64,000 nt of DNA from Bdellovibrio sp. 22V (GTDB lineage Bacteria; Bdellovibrionota; Bdellovibrionia; Bdellovibrionales; Bdellovibrionaceae). Location of the stretch: NCBI RefSeq assembly GCF_030169785.1, contig NZ_CP125854.1, forward strand, positions 1,054,001-1,118,000, written 5' to 3'. The notes under the pieces were generated by a model, which worked only from the letters and a program-made list of their open reading frames with translations, made no database searches and was not told the origin of the DNA. Of this stretch, positions 56,581 to 62,079 are shown piece by piece (the stretch's first letter is position 1; each line of letters opens with the position of its first letter). The position numbers and the translations under genes were made by a program.

Positions 56581-57024
56581 ATGATGAAAATGCTTTTTTC
56601 AGCAGCCTTAATCGTACTTGCGGGAAGTTCCGCTTTCGCAGCGGAATTGACTCCGGGAAATCTTATCGGACGTTACAGAGTCGAAGCCCGCGCGGGATTT
56701 CAAAAAGTTTATATCAAGTTCCGTGTCATCAATACGAAAGAATTCGAATTGCAAAGAACGTATCCGAACGGAAATGTCGATGAACTTTGCAACGGAACTT
56801 ACAATCTTAATCCCACTTTGTTCTGGGATGATTTCGCGTTGCTCGCTAAAGGCAAGACTTTCAAAGGCACCTTCACATGCCCTAGCAACCGCTCTCGCGT
56901 AGTCACTTTCAATATCGATTTTCAGAATAAAACGACCGAGGACTTAGCTCGCGGGACAAATGTTTCCGTAACAAGTTCCATGGCCCCAGGAATGACGTTA
57001 AACGCTTACGTCAAAAAGCAGTAA
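56581..57024 (+). CDS. Secreted protein of unknown function
   Basis: The 147 residues begin with a signal peptide (MMKMLFSAALIVLAGSSAFA), followed by a short beta-like domain with two Cys (CNGTYNLNP and FTCPSNRS). GGAGGG precedes the start; the second ATG, three bases on, is equally possible. The family is unknown to me. It may be small and periplasmic. The structured element and 18-T terminator lie directly downstream. Confidence 0.7.
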   Translation: MMKMLFSAALIVLAGSSAFAAELTPGNLIGRYRVEARAGFQKVYIKFRVINTKEFELQRTYPNGNVDELCNGTYNLNPTLFWDDFALLAKGKTFKGTFTCPSNRSRVVTFNIDFQNKTTEDLARGTNVSVTSSMAPGMTLNAYVKKQ

Positions 57025-57053
57025 CTTTCTGCGGGTTCTTGGCGAGCACGACG

Positions 57054-57208
57054 GATTTAAGCGCCGGGCTTTGCAGTTTCCCGGCGCTTCGGTCGACACG
57101 GCCTCGTGCCTCAGTTGCCGCCCCGGGCTGACGCCCGGTTCGCGCCATCGTGGCGCCGGCAAAGGTCGACGCTACGGCCGGCAAACTGCAAAGCCCGGCG
57201 CTTAAATC
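57054..57208. repeat. Large nested inverted-repeat element
   Basis: Arms at 57054-57079 and 57183-57208 are perfect reverse complements over 26 bp (left arm starts GATTTAAGCGCCGGG). The 103 bases between hold more hairpins: CCGGGC/GCCCGG with loop TGAC (57123-57138) and GCGCCA/TGGCGC with loop TCG (57142-57156). The stretch is much more G+C-rich than its surroundings. No gene, no direct repeat target site and no transposase are seen, so it is either a structured RNA, a repeat of unknown kind or a large attenuator. Confidence 0.8.
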
Positions 57209-57210
57209 GG

Positions 57211-57268
57211 TGCTTCGTCAAGATGTAGTATTCCTGATCTTGACGAAGCATTTTTTTTTTTTTTTTTT
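57211..57268 (+). terminator. Terminator with 14-bp stem and 18-T tract
   Basis: TGCTTCGTCAAGAT and ATCTTGACGAAGCA are perfect partners with a 12-base loop, followed by 18 consecutive T (57251-57268). It ends transcription from the left. It lies five bases from the end of the tolC-like gene on the other strand. Confidence 0.92.
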
Positions 57269-57273
57269 CGTGC

Positions 57274-58530
57274 TTAGAGTTCGCTTAGCAGAAGTTGAGA
57301 TGAATAAAGTTTATTGAAGTCGCGGACGATTTCAGAGAGTCGCAGTTTGGCGTTGATATATTTTTCCGTGGCTTCGAGCATGTCGGGGGAGTTTTTGACT
57401 CCGCGGGCATATTCCTTTCTTGTGGCGTCGAGATAGCGGGAAGCACTTTTGATATTTTCTTCCGTATCATGCACGAACGAATGCAGGGTGCGGAGTTCGT
57501 CGATTTTGTTGGTTTGATCCAGTTCCGTTTTTTGGCGAGCGTAGTTAAGAGCCAACTCTTTAGAAGCAAGTTCCTTTTGCAGGCTGCTTCTTTCAACAAA
57601 AGAGGAAACGGTTTTTCCCAAAGACCAAGAGGCGCGCAGGCCCATATAGGTTTCGCGGCGGTCAGAGGCATCGGCGAAATCTCTTTCGTCGCGTTGATTG
57701 TTTTCAGCAAGACCCGCATAGGCATCAATCGCCGGGAAGTAGTCGGATTTGTATTGGCTTTTTTTGCTTTTCAGAACTTCCTTTTCCGTATTGAGAAGAT
57801 TCACTTCGGGCAATCGTTCGCTGGAAATAGGTTTGAGGTTCTGTTCCCATTCGTGAAAATGGTGAAGAGACCCCTGGGCTATGACGGGAGACTTGGCACC
57901 CAAAGACAAGGCCAAAGATTTGGAGTTTTGACGGATGTCTTTTTCGGTCAGCGAAATCTCTTGTTTGATAACCGAGATGCGCATTTCAAACTCTAAACGG
58001 TCTGTTGCCGTTGCGACGCCGGCGGAAACGCGGCGGCTGGCTTCTTGAAGATTCTGTTGGGTCAGTTTCAAATCGTCATTGAGGATCTTCAGCCTTTCCT
58101 GCTGAAACAAAAGATTCCAGTAGAGATCGTAAGCTTTTTGAATTTCCTCCTGAAGGGACAATTTGGTTTCGTACTCCGCGGCCTTTGTTTCTAATTCCCG
58201 GGAAGCTTCCTCTTGTGAGTCCGCGCCACCGCGGAAAAGATTCAATGTGGCCTCAGCACGCCAATGCGGCTGGGTTTTTTGTTCTTCGTTTCCGACCTTG
58301 AAAGTCTCTTGTGCGTATTCGGCGTTGATGTCTGGGATAAACGAGCGCCCTAAATGACCCTCGCGCGATTTCTTGGCGTTTTTCTTACCTTCAAGCGATT
58401 CCACTAAAGGATTTTTACTTCGCACTCTTTCCGCGATCTGTTCAAAAGAGACACTCTCATTGGCGCTCGCACTGAGCGCAAATAAAAGACTCCCGAAAAG
58501 ATAAATAATTTGTTTCATGCTATTTCTCAC
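57274..58530 (-). CDS. TolC family outer membrane efflux protein
   Basis: The 418 residues have a signal peptide (MKQIIYLFGSLLFALSASA from residue 5), followed by two repeats of long helices typical of TolC/CusC channels, with the pattern NLFRGGADSQEEASRELETK and LETRISVIKQE-like segments. GTG at 58530 overlaps the previous stop (GTGA), while ATG at 58518 gives the cleaner signal peptide; either may be used. It is the last gene of the metal efflux operon and would carry ions out of the cell. It is somewhat shorter than most TolC proteins. Confidence 0.88.
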   Translation of the reverse strand: MRNSMKQIIYLFGSLLFALSASANESVSFEQIAERVRSKNPLVESLEGKKNAKKSREGHLGRSFIPDINAEYAQETFKVGNEEQKTQPHWRAEATLNLFRGGADSQEEASRELETKAAEYETKLSLQEEIQKAYDLYWNLLFQQERLKILNDDLKLTQQNLQEASRRVSAGVATATDRLEFEMRISVIKQEISLTEKDIRQNSKSLALSLGAKSPVIAQGSLHHFHEWEQNLKPISSERLPEVNLLNTEKEVLKSKKSQYKSDYFPAIDAYAGLAENNQRDERDFADASDRRETYMGLRASWSLGKTVSSFVERSSLQKELASKELALNYARQKTELDQTNKIDELRTLHSFVHDTEENIKSASRYLDATRKEYARGVKNSPDMLEATEKYINAKLRLSEIVRDFNKLYSSQLLLSEL

Positions 58531-58940
58531 TTGCGAGGTTCTACAGTGAACGTCAATTTGTCTTCATGTCCTTGTTTCGCATCGGTGATTAAAACAATCA
58601 GGTTGTAGCGATGCGCGCCTTTGGCATCAAAGCTGGCTTCAAGATGATGTGCTTCCGTTTTATATGTCAGCTCTTCTGTTTTTTTAGAGCGCGGAAGTTC
58701 CGCCTTCAATTTGATTTTAAATTGGCTCGCGTCTGCGGGCTTGAGGTCTTTATTGTACAAATAGACCTTGATATCTTTGCCTTTAGAAATGACTTCGACG
58801 TGCACTTCTTCCAGCGATTTGATGACGCCGCCTTTGGGTGCCTGCACCATCGCAGGTCCGTCGTGATCGTGGCCTTCATGAGCGCTCACAGGCAACGCGA
58901 AAAAAGAAGCTGCGATAAGTGAAAGAAAAATCTGTTTCAT
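58527..58940 (-). CDS. His-rich periplasmic protein of the metal efflux operon
   Basis: ATG with first base at 58940 follows GGAGATTTTT and gives 137 residues, with a signal peptide (residues 1-20) and then HEGHDHDGPAMVQAPKGG. The cluster of His and Asp right after cleavage is a likely metal-binding site. The rest is a small beta domain like the heavy-metal binding part found in CusB-type adaptors, but no lipoyl hairpin is present. It lies between the RND pump and TolC genes, where an adaptor is expected. A chaperone or sensor for the exported metal is the likely role. Confidence 0.75.
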   Translation of the reverse strand: MKQIFLSLIAASFFALPVSAHEGHDHDGPAMVQAPKGGVIKSLEEVHVEVISKGKDIKVYLYNKDLKPADASQFKIKLKAELPRSKKTEELTYKTEAHHLEASFDAKGAHRYNLIVLITDAKQGHEDKLTFTVEPRK

Positions 58941-58953
58941 AAAAATCTCCTGA

Positions 58954-61900
58954 TTAAATAGTTTCGTTGTTATTTTCTGTTTCAATGGATTGTTCTGCCG
59001 CCTTTTTTCCAAAGCGGTAGAAAAGGGTTGGGGTGACGATGATGTCCAAAAGTGTCGAGCTTAAAAGACCTCCGACAATCACGACCGCCACAGGATGCAG
59101 GATTTCACTTCCCGGTTGGCCCTTTGCAAAGACCAAAGGTAAAAGTGCCAAAGACGCCACAAACGCCGTCATCATCACAGGCACAAGACGTTCCTGCGAG
59201 CCGCGAATGATCATATCTTTGTTGAATCCTTCACCTTCATGCTTCATCAAGTGCAAGTAATGGGAAATCATCATAATGCCATTGCGCGAGGCGACTCCGC
59301 ACAATGTAATAAAACCGACAAGGCTAGCCACCGTGACCGAGCGATCCGTGATAAACAGCAGAACGATGCCGCCGATGAAAGCAAATGGTATCGTCGCCAT
59401 AATCTGCGCGGTGATCATCGTCGATTTAAAGTGCGTATAAAGAACGAAGGCGATGCCGAATAAAGAAAGCACACCGAAAAGAATAATTTTTTTCGTTGCC
59501 GCCTGCTGACTTTCAAACTGTCCGCCATAAACGACATAGTAGCCGGAAGGCAGTTTTACTTTTTCAGTCACTCTGTTTTGAATGTCTTGAATCAGACTGC
59601 CTAAATCTCTTTGGCTCACATTGGCTGAAATCACGATACGGCGCTGGCCGTTTTCGCGGTTGATCTCGTTGGGGCCTGTTGTTTCATAGACGTCGGCGAC
59701 TTGCTCCAAAAGAACCTTGCGACCGTCAGGCATCGTTTTTAAAACAGTTTTTTGCATTTTCTCTAAAGACTGTTTTGATTTGTCGTCGAAGCGATAGAAG
59801 ACATCGTATTGCCGAGTCTCTTCCAAAACCTGGGCGACGGTTTCGCCGTTGAAAGCCCCCTCCAGCAGCGAAGTCACTTCGCCAGGACTCATTCCGTATT
59901 TGGCGGCTTCGTCACGCAAGACGTGAATCTTCACTTGCGGAATCAAACCCTGGCTTTCGATACGCAAGTCCACTAAACCTGGTGTGCCTTCGATGGCTTC
60001 TTTGAGTTCGATGGATTTTTCCCGCAACGTCGTCAAGTCAGGTCCAAAGATTTTAATTGCAACGGCAGCGCTGACACCCGAAAGCATGTGATCGATCAGA
60101 TGCCCAATAGGCTGTCCGATGTTCACGCCCATTCCAGGAAGGTCGCGTTTGATGTTTTCGCGTATCTCATTAAGCACGGTATCTTTGCTGCGGCCTTTTG
60201 CATGGAAATCGACGTCGATCTCGCTGATATTGACGCCCATGGCGTGTTCATCCATTTCTGCTCTTCCGGTACGGCGAGACACCGACTTAATTTCTGGAGT
60301 CTTCATAATAATCAGCTCAGCTTTTTTGCCGATCTCATTGGAGGCTTGCAAGCTTGTGCCCGGAGGAGTGATCACGCTCACCATCGCAGTGCCCTCGTTG
60401 AACTGCGGTAGGAAATCGCGGCCCATGAAAGGAACTAATAACAACGATAAAATTAGAAGTACACTTGTTGCCGCTAAAATCAGTTTCGACCGCGGCAAGG
60501 CCCACTCTAAAATTCTGCGATCTTGCTTCTTCAACCACTGTACGAAATGAGTGTCCCCGTGTTCTTTTAAAGATCCTTGCGTCAGGAAGTACGAACATAG
60601 CACCGGAGTTAAAGTCAGTGAAACCAACAATGACGCCGTCAGGGCCGTTAGATAAGCAATCGCAAGCGGAGTGAAAAGACGTCCTTCGAGTCCCGTAAGA
60701 TTAAAGAGCGGCAAAAACACCAAAGCAATAATCACAGTTGCGAGGACGATAGAGTTTCGCACTTCCGAAGAAGCGTCAAAAATAACACGCAAGCTCGAGC
60801 GCGGATTTGACAGTTTCATATTCTCGCGCAAGCGGCGATAAACGTTTTCAACATCGACGATCGAGTCATCGACTAATTCGCCGATAGCGATAGCAAGTCC
60901 ACCGAGTGTCATTGTGTTGACGGAAAGACCAAACCAGCGAAAGACAACGAACGTCACCAAAAAGGAAACGGGAATCGCCGTCAAAGTAATGACGGACATG
61001 CGTAGGTTCGCAAGAAAAATAAAAAGAACCACAAAAACCAAAACCGTTCCGAACTTGAGCTTCCCTTGAATGCCGTCGATAGACGCCTCAATAAAATGAG
61101 ATTGCTTAAAGATATCGGTATTGACGGTAACTCCCGGCGGCAAAGACGGTTTGATTTCAGCAATCGCTTTTTCAATATTGCGAGTCACCGTCACCGTATC
61201 AGCGGAGGGCTGCTTTTGTACCGTGATAATCACCGCAGGTTTTGCTTTGTAGCTTCCGTCGCCGCGTTTTGTTTTCGGAGCTTCCACGACCTCGGCAATA
61301 TCCTTAAGAAAAATAGGACGGCCAAAGTGCAAACCGACCAGAGTGTTTTTGATGTCGTCGAGACTTTCCACGACACCAATATTTCGAACCAAATACTCTT
61401 GCGTATCCTTGTCTAAAAAACCACCTGTGGTGTTCTGACTGATTTGCGCAAGCTCCTTATCGATTTGTTCTAAGTGCAATTGATGGAGATTCATTTTCTC
61501 CGCCGACAGAAGGATCTGATACTGTTTTAGTCCACCGCCGATGGAAATAACTTGCGCGACACCCGGAACTGTCATCAGGCGTGGGCGCAAAACCCACTCT
61601 GCCAGATCGCGCACTTGCATGGGTGGAACAGATTCGTTTTCAGAATAAAGCGCGATCATTTGGATTTGTCCCATCAGAGAAGTGATAGGACCCATGATCG
61701 GCGTCACGTCTTTAGGCAGACGCTCCTTGGCTAAAGCCAGCTTTTCTTGGACAAGTTGGCGATTGCGATAGATGTCGGAGCCCCATTCAAACTCGACATA
61801 GATGGCCGACAAGCCGATACCGGATTGAGAGCGAATTCTTTCAACACCGGGCAGGCCGTTGAGGTAAGACTCGATCGCATAAGTCACACGCGTTTCGACT

Positions 61901-62079
61901 TCTTCCGGTGCCATGCCGTGCGCCTCGGTCATAATCGTGACCGTGGGTTTATTGATGTCTGGAAATACATCAATGGGAAGATTTTTAAGAGTAACCGCGC
62001 CATAGACAATAATCAGCGCAGTGACCGCCACCACAAGCAGTCGATGGTTCAACGCGAACCGAATAATAGTATTGAGCAT
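58954..62079 (-). CDS. CusA/CzcA-type heavy metal efflux RND pump
   Basis: The 1041 residues form an inner-membrane RND proton antiporter with 12 membrane segments and two large periplasmic loops. The N terminus MLNTIIRFALNHRLLV and LPIDVFPDINKP, the metal-type block AIGELVDDSIVDVENVYRRL in the fourth membrane segment and GVASRNGIMMISHYLHL are of the HME-RND group. These exchange protons for divalent cations or Cu/Ag. Metal specificity cannot be set exactly from this. It heads an operon with the His-rich protein and TolC. The CzcI-like gene upstream is probably in the same transcript. Confidence 0.93.
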   Translation of the reverse strand: MLNTIIRFALNHRLLVVAVTALIIVYGAVTLKNLPIDVFPDINKPTVTIMTEAHGMAPEEVETRVTYAIESYLNGLPGVERIRSQSGIGLSAIYVEFEWGSDIYRNRQLVQEKLALAKERLPKDVTPIMGPITSLMGQIQMIALYSENESVPPMQVRDLAEWVLRPRLMTVPGVAQVISIGGGLKQYQILLSAEKMNLHQLHLEQIDKELAQISQNTTGGFLDKDTQEYLVRNIGVVESLDDIKNTLVGLHFGRPIFLKDIAEVVEAPKTKRGDGSYKAKPAVIITVQKQPSADTVTVTRNIEKAIAEIKPSLPPGVTVNTDIFKQSHFIEASIDGIQGKLKFGTVLVFVVLFIFLANLRMSVITLTAIPVSFLVTFVVFRWFGLSVNTMTLGGLAIAIGELVDDSIVDVENVYRRLRENMKLSNPRSSLRVIFDASSEVRNSIVLATVIIALVFLPLFNLTGLEGRLFTPLAIAYLTALTASLLVSLTLTPVLCSYFLTQGSLKEHGDTHFVQWLKKQDRRILEWALPRSKLILAATSVLLILSLLLVPFMGRDFLPQFNEGTAMVSVITPPGTSLQASNEIGKKAELIIMKTPEIKSVSRRTGRAEMDEHAMGVNISEIDVDFHAKGRSKDTVLNEIRENIKRDLPGMGVNIGQPIGHLIDHMLSGVSAAVAIKIFGPDLTTLREKSIELKEAIEGTPGLVDLRIESQGLIPQVKIHVLRDEAAKYGMSPGEVTSLLEGAFNGETVAQVLEETRQYDVFYRFDDKSKQSLEKMQKTVLKTMPDGRKVLLEQVADVYETTGPNEINRENGQRRIVISANVSQRDLGSLIQDIQNRVTEKVKLPSGYYVVYGGQFESQQAATKKIILFGVLSLFGIAFVLYTHFKSTMITAQIMATIPFAFIGGIVLLFITDRSVTVASLVGFITLCGVASRNGIMMISHYLHLMKHEGEGFNKDMIIRGSQERLVPVMMTAFVASLALLPLVFAKGQPGSEILHPVAVVIVGGLLSSTLLDIIVTPTLFYRFGKKAAEQSIETENNNETI

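Follow-up and report, generated by a model that had tools for sequence, protein, structure and literature searches.

The question raised by this locus is what kind of element lies between two genes in the chromosome of Bdellovibrio sp. 22V. The window, by which is meant the whole stretch of 64,000 nucleotides that was analysed (NZ_CP125854.1, positions 1,054,001 to 1,118,000), contains a short intergenic region with an exceptional amount of nested pairing. A first-pass annotation made from the letters alone had offered three readings, namely a structured RNA, a mobile repeat of the REP/MITE kind, or a folded 3′ region. These readings are considered below in the light of searches of the same genome, the genus, the phylum and beyond.

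The element and its surroundings

The features of the locus are listed in Table 1. The element proper covers 57049-57208, and the terminator that follows it (57211-57268) is a separate and ordinary feature, as the first-pass annotation had proposed. That annotation was also right about the perfect reverse-complement arms of 26 bp each, 57054-57079 (GATTTAAGCGCCGGGCTTTGCAGTTT) and 57183-57208, which reach 32 bp (the limits given in Table 1) if one mismatch is allowed, and about the presence of at least two perfect inner hairpins, which are helices 4 and 5. Besides these two hairpins the arms also enclose an outer branched helix. The remark that there is no transposase or target duplication holds for the window locus. 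The RNA fold of 57040-57275 has an energy of -138.2 kcal/mol; dinucleotide shuffling, done 200 times, gave -85.8 ± 4.6 and never so low a value (z -11.5).

Table 1. Features of the locus, in window coordinates
Feature	Position	Strand	Basis or remark
Upstream gene, 147-aa secreted-type orphan ORF	56581..57024	+	Stop 29 nt before the left arm of the element
5′ boundary motif CGACG	57049..57053	+	Boundary alignment of the family
Left arm, 32 nt (26 perfect, one mismatch, 5 more), starting with conserved GATTT	57054..57085	+	
Conserved core, a dispersed repeat with a branched fold	57086..57176	+	Covariance model R1: 86.9 bits
Core helix 1, 5′ side GTCGAC, partner 57165-57170	57092..57097	+	Sequence; covaries across the family
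Small core hairpin GGC-CTCGT-GCC (helix 2)	57100..57110	+	Family covariation analysis
Junction helix (helix 3), 5′ side TTGCCG, partner CGGCAA 57157-57162	57115..57120	+	
Core hairpin CCGGGC-TGAC-GCCCGG (helix 4)	57123..57138	+	
Core hairpin GCGCCA-TCG-TGGCGC (helix 5)	57142..57156	+	
Right arm, reverse complement of the left arm	57177..57208	+	
Intrinsic terminator	57211..57268	+	14-bp stem 57211-57224/57237-57250, 18 T at 57251-57268
Convergent gene, outer membrane efflux protein (TolC type)	57274..58530	-	Pfam PF02321, E 1.3e-24

No Pfam match was obtained for the upstream ORF. The convergent neighbour operon (57274-62079) resembles a CusA/CzcA-type metal efflux system with an outer membrane partner.

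Copies in the genus and beyond

BLAST of the window stretch against its own genome showed that the inner ~85 nt recurs there, every time inside long arms of other sequence; the genome holds 12 copies. The core was detected by BLAST in 20 of the 24 genomes of the genus. A covariance model built from 41 cores, with matches counted at E ≤ 0.01, was positive in 22 of the 24 and gave at least 340 copies in total (0-31 per genome among the scored candidates), which is a lower bound because up to 150 candidates were scored per genome. The first-pass annotation had suggested that many copies would mean a repeat, and a repeat is what the searches of its own genome and of other Bdellovibrio genomes returned.

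In a sample of the phylum, 27 of 291 genomes were positive, of which 20 are genus members. A few weaker matches come from outside the genus, from other families of the phylum; G162 and G175 (assemblies 75-82% complete) have 19 each, with the same anatomy of a G+C-rich core within long arms. Beyond the phylum, 21 exact-pattern matches were found in genome contigs; those not from Bdellovibrio score at most 25 bits, and the ones inspected resemble coding DNA. Viral contigs gave no exact-pattern match of the element. Rfam at the gathering score gave nothing in the window, and a relaxed threshold gave chance matches only.

The matches in G175 and G162, which are small genomes from another family, have some features of their own. 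At L089, L206, L233 and L234 the palindrome extends far past the arms in nested interrupted blocks, for example CCTTTGACACACCAGAC..GTCTGGTGTGTCAAAGG, and these outer blocks covary between copies too. In some of the cores (L233, L235, L236 and L239) one hairpin is replaced by a longer GATTCGCGGCATTATATCTC segment, like a swapped module.

Anatomy of the family

In the boundary alignment the family begins with the 5′ consensus CTTCGAGCG[ACG][CG]G, immediately followed by GATTTG, a private arm, a core of ~88 nt, the complementary arm ending in CAAATC, and then TTTGCT. The core consists of a closing helix and branching hairpins, and the total length is 150-180 nt, with arms of 20-44 bp in 79 of the 84 distinct copies. 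A 1x1 mismatch recurs in the arms, 5-6 bp from the core end. The tetraloop seen in helix 4 of the window is replaced in most family copies by a triloop, which on the minus strand is GNA or AAA.

The arm sequence is private to each locus. What the arms of different copies have in common is confined to the outer ~6 bp (GATTTG/CAAATC); among non-orthologous copies, arm sequence is otherwise shared in two matches of 14 nt and in a partial similarity within one pair of G003 copies. The left-arm 26-mer of the window has no second site in its own genome, with up to 3 mismatches allowed. Within a copy the arms match closely, with 96.6% Watson-Crick pairs over 2527 positions in the 84 distinct copies. 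The family is dispersed, its core conserved in structure and set between long, locus-private and mutually complementary arms. That arms which vary from one copy to the next nearly always pair with their partner argues for a mechanism at the level of DNA and against an ordinary RNA.

The suggestion that the arms were taken from elsewhere in the genome, or serve as guides, was rejected, given that the window arm is unique in its own genome. An origin as an inverted target duplication was also rejected: the arms begin with the conserved GATTTG and orthologous arms have words in common, and therefore the arms are part of the element. A composite transposon made of tail-to-tail pairs was likewise rejected, since the arms of the paired elements are unrelated and the intervening stretches of the four pairs inspected by eye have no common cargo. 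Convergent genes, with one element each, explain the tail-to-tail layout. Between the two elements of L038, the short hairpins AAATCTACTGCCATCGTGGCAGTG and AAATCCACCGCCACCGTGGCGGTA suggest another dispersed repeat.

Base pairing in the core and arms

Pairing in the core was analysed in 81 distinct cores, giving 1930 pair cells, of which 97.8% are standard pairs. Compensatory changes, in which both sides differ, account for 304 of these cells and occur in 21 of the 24 core pairs, and there are no one-side changes. The covariation score is 0.419, compared to 0.111 for shuffled and 0.04-0.07 for slid controls, and on four of five measures the structure outdoes each of the 500 shuffles; it also outdoes every slid control. 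Covariation of this kind would by itself normally be read as a structured RNA. The covariation analysis that the first-pass annotation had proposed thus gave strongly covarying core stems, almost without G.U, and it is the second part of this result that weakens the RNA reading.

Among the 1930 core cells only 2 are G.U. In arms and core together (4457 cells, + strand) there are 18 G.U (0.4%) and 29 C.A. By comparison, the 31 tRNA genes of the same genome have G.U in 42 of 671 pairs (6.3%; p = 2e-24 versus the element), and 87 terminator hairpins, scored as the arms were, have 18 G.U and 4 C.A (p = 8e-4 versus the element). G.U is scarce and, unlike in the tRNAs and terminators, is not favoured over C.A, which argues that the element evolves as DNA and not as an ordinary RNA. 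The sequences of the element thus carry no mark of selection acting on a transcribed strand. That base pairing is a property of the DNA is supported but not proved. The covarying stems pass all the usual tests for a structured RNA and yet look DNA-driven, which is a warning for RNA discovery based on covariation.

The alternative is a hairpin in the 3′ untranslated region of the upstream gene, or a small RNA derived from it, in which pairing is kept by compensatory mutations. This would account for the strong helix covariation, for the highly stable RNA fold of the window element (z -11.5), and for the many copies that lie soon after a same-strand stop codon (mode about 7-35 nt). We nevertheless consider it unlikely, and the RNA reading of the first-pass annotation is not supported. 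Apart from the near absence of G.U, no Rfam family matches, and the eight copies located in genome G001, among them those at positions 1515874, 2307522 and 2429788, overlap none of the eight attack-phase sRNAs of HD100 that have been catalogued with coordinates (PMC3627812), a comparison that covers the attack phase only. G001 matches the published HD100 coordinates, its c-di-GMP-I riboswitch lying inside merRNA. A further difficulty is that 21 of 79 copies lie past an intrinsic terminator. The same copies bear on the folded 3′ region of the first-pass annotation, which has the position 3′ of a gene right but does not fit copies beyond the gene's own terminator.

Mismatches on the minus strand are A.G (66), G.T (29), A.C (18) and others (16), which is approximately the order of mismatch tolerance in DNA. 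In the most variable core hairpin the minus-strand triloops are GAA (31), AAA (18), GCA (11) and GTA (2), mostly with a C-G closing pair; C(GNA)G loops form unusually stable DNA hairpins. Because of this mismatch order and these triloop types, the strand that folds is probably the minus strand, either single-stranded or extruded. Many of the mismatches come from core helix 1 and from the arm position 5-6 bp from the core, and the assignment therefore leans partly on a few recurrent positions.

Presence, absence and placement

Orthologous loci differ in whether they carry a copy. The L131 locus is filled in G000, G003, G006, G009 and G013 and empty in G010, G005, G018 and G015. At the L125 locus, G006 has an insert of ~350 bp with the element, inside the T-tract of an intrinsic terminator, while in G003, G010, G000 and G013 the terminator is uninterrupted and is followed directly by the end of the convergent gene. 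Given the uninterrupted terminator in four genomes, the insert is a gain in G006, and a recent one. The L114 locus has a similar presence/absence difference, with TATTTT at both ends, which is unpolarised. The inserts at L114 and L125 are bounded by T-rich repeats such as TATTTT. No clean target duplication was found at the inserts; their ends sit in T-tracts, where duplication and microhomology look alike.

In G021, the L131 locus (L182) has ~750 bp in place of the element between the same two genes, with what by eye is an apparent toxin-antitoxin-like pair on the opposite strand.

A sense terminator is found within 150 nt upstream in 21 of 79 copies, compared to 8 with one downstream and 4 with an antisense terminator upstream. 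For 20 of these 21 copies, 14-45 nt separate the end of the T-run from the element that follows. Copies lacking an upstream terminator are often 7-35 nt past a stop codon. Divergent neighbour genes are rare (3 of 84 copies), and orientation relative to co-directional genes is mildly biased (26 versus 15, p = 0.12). These positions suggest that a putative cellular or trans-acting enzyme may insert the element just past gene 3′ ends or terminators.

The element could instead be a DNA site of benefit to the host, for a nucleoid protein, gyrase or a recombinase, fixed by selection at gene ends, so that its mobility would be mostly the gain and loss of a useful site. The core is conserved, with specific loops and a recurrent mismatch nearby, and persistence at L131 in five species (G000, G003, G006, G009 and G013) could mean a host function. 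A copy number that ranges from 0 to 31 within the genus, with two genomes lacking the element altogether, tells against such a site, as do the gain in the single lineage of G006 and the unconstrained sequence of the arms, and we regard this explanation too as improbable.

Changes in the arms

Comparison of G003 and G006, at loci where the flanks are 90-98% identical, shows arms that are either nearly identical or just 53-76% identical, and still complementary. In the pair L109/L305 a block of ~14 bp differs symmetrically in both arms, and the arm bases on either side of it, outer and inner, are alike. L099/L304 has arms that agree and inner hairpins that differ, although each of these hairpins remains self-complementary. 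The L112/L094 pair has one arm in common and differs in the other, giving a mismatched intermediate.

Template switching in replication makes multi-base compensatory changes in one event (PMC8794818). Fold-back synthesis of this kind may copy one arm onto the other, so that the arms would stay complementary and would sometimes be rewritten in blocks. Alternatively, recombination at the locus with a divergent allele could account for the block changes.

Taking pairing, placement and arm changes together, the reading that we favour, and think rather likely to be correct, is a non-autonomous mobile DNA hairpin that is inserted at terminators or gene 3′ ends and has its arms kept complementary by fold-back synthesis. 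A bolder version, which we put forward only tentatively and doubt somewhat, is that such hairpins form a class of their own, new among bacterial mobile DNA: each would fold as a single strand, with a conserved cloverleaf-like core, and insert at transcription terminators, and one arm would be resynthesised from the other during the copying cycle, so that each copy would gain its own perfectly complementary arms. Should fold-back synthesis indeed rewrite the arms, the family would provide over 300 natural records of template switching, and the origin of compensatory changes would become directly testable.

Search for a transposase

Genes for Y1 (RAYT-type) transposases occur in 21 of the 24 genomes of the genus, the exceptions being G002, G012 and G015. 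The element was found at none of the 30 Y1 loci that were read, and there is no Y1 gene in G162 or G175, with 19 weaker element matches each in assemblies 75-82% complete. A RAYT/Y1 partner is thus not supported. No transposase, integrase or autonomous parent copy was found for the element, Y1 being the one type sought genome-wide. Two of the Y1/RAYT-like genes of Bdellovibrio (L149 in G016 and L161 in G000) have flanking inverted repeats of their own, of the type AAAAAGGTGCCTGCC / AGGTACCTGCTTCCC, which are unrelated to the element.

A REP element moved by a RAYT (Y1/HUH) transposase would be palindromic, extragenic and dispersed, as this element is, and a 4-nt G-rich foot (GRSG) stands before the hairpin in a genus where Y1 genes are widespread. 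The foot, G[ACG][CG]G, is however not GTAG/GTGG, and together with the 30 Y1 loci and the five genomes lacking Y1 this makes such an origin very unlikely. The mobile repeat of the first-pass annotation is accordingly supported as a general class, given the dispersal, the presence/absence differences and the one insertion whose direction is clear, whereas membership of REP/RAYT is not supported.

A chance G+C-rich palindrome, to which the first-pass annotation would have reduced the element if there were neither copies nor conservation, has G+C richness alone in its favour and can be dismissed, given the dispersed homologues in its own genome and across the genus, the covariation and the shuffle z of -11.5.

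Comparison with known systems

We found no description of the element in the open-access literature on Bdellovibrio repeats, MITEs, sRNAs or variable-arm hairpins, which is no proof of absence; the family, mobile DNA hairpins of Bdellovibrio and related bacteria, is apparently previously undescribed. It differs from an intrinsic terminator in that its 3′ flank has the consensus TTTGCT and no stem followed by a T-run, the window terminator being separate.

The integron attC site is similar in lying 3′ of genes, in folding its bottom strand, and in conserving pairing rather than sequence (PMC7923331). Here, however, there is a conserved inner core with free arms, in single dispersed units and not cassette arrays, and no R′ (GTTRRRY) or R′′ boxes were seen by eye in the boundary alignment. 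Group IIC introns also insert beside the stem-loops of Rho-independent terminators (PMC7923331), whereas our element is shorter than 200 nt, has no ribozyme or reverse transcriptase, and has no Rfam match. If terminator insertion is correct, it would be a second kind of terminator-associated mobile DNA besides these introns. Template switching at quasipalindromes copies an arm onto its partner in one event, giving multi-base compensation without G-U intermediates (PMC8794818). As described, this is a mutation process of general occurrence, whereas in the present case its target would be an entire family of dispersed elements.

Among mobile repeats, MITEs are likewise short, non-coding and dispersed, with terminal inverted repeats, but in our element the terminal repeats are not common to copies beyond the outer ~6 bp, and no parent was found, in searches that did not extend to whole genomes. 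The repetitive/double hairpin elements (RHE) of sponge mitochondria are scattered intergenic hairpins that are structurally divergent and have invaded repeatedly (PMC2800124); the present element is in a bacterial chromosome, has a conserved core with variable arms, and lies at terminators and gene 3′ ends. REP/BIME sequences with RAYT are short extragenic palindromes in many copies, in which palindromy is kept by complementary mutations (PMC2817692), and in this they are similar. They differ in length (20-40 nt for REP versus 150-180 nt), and the element has a branched core and long locus-private arms, no GTAG/GTGG foot, and no association with Y1 loci. It is concluded that the element belongs to a family of mobile DNA hairpins which is broadly of the REP/MITE/RHE type but has distinctive properties.
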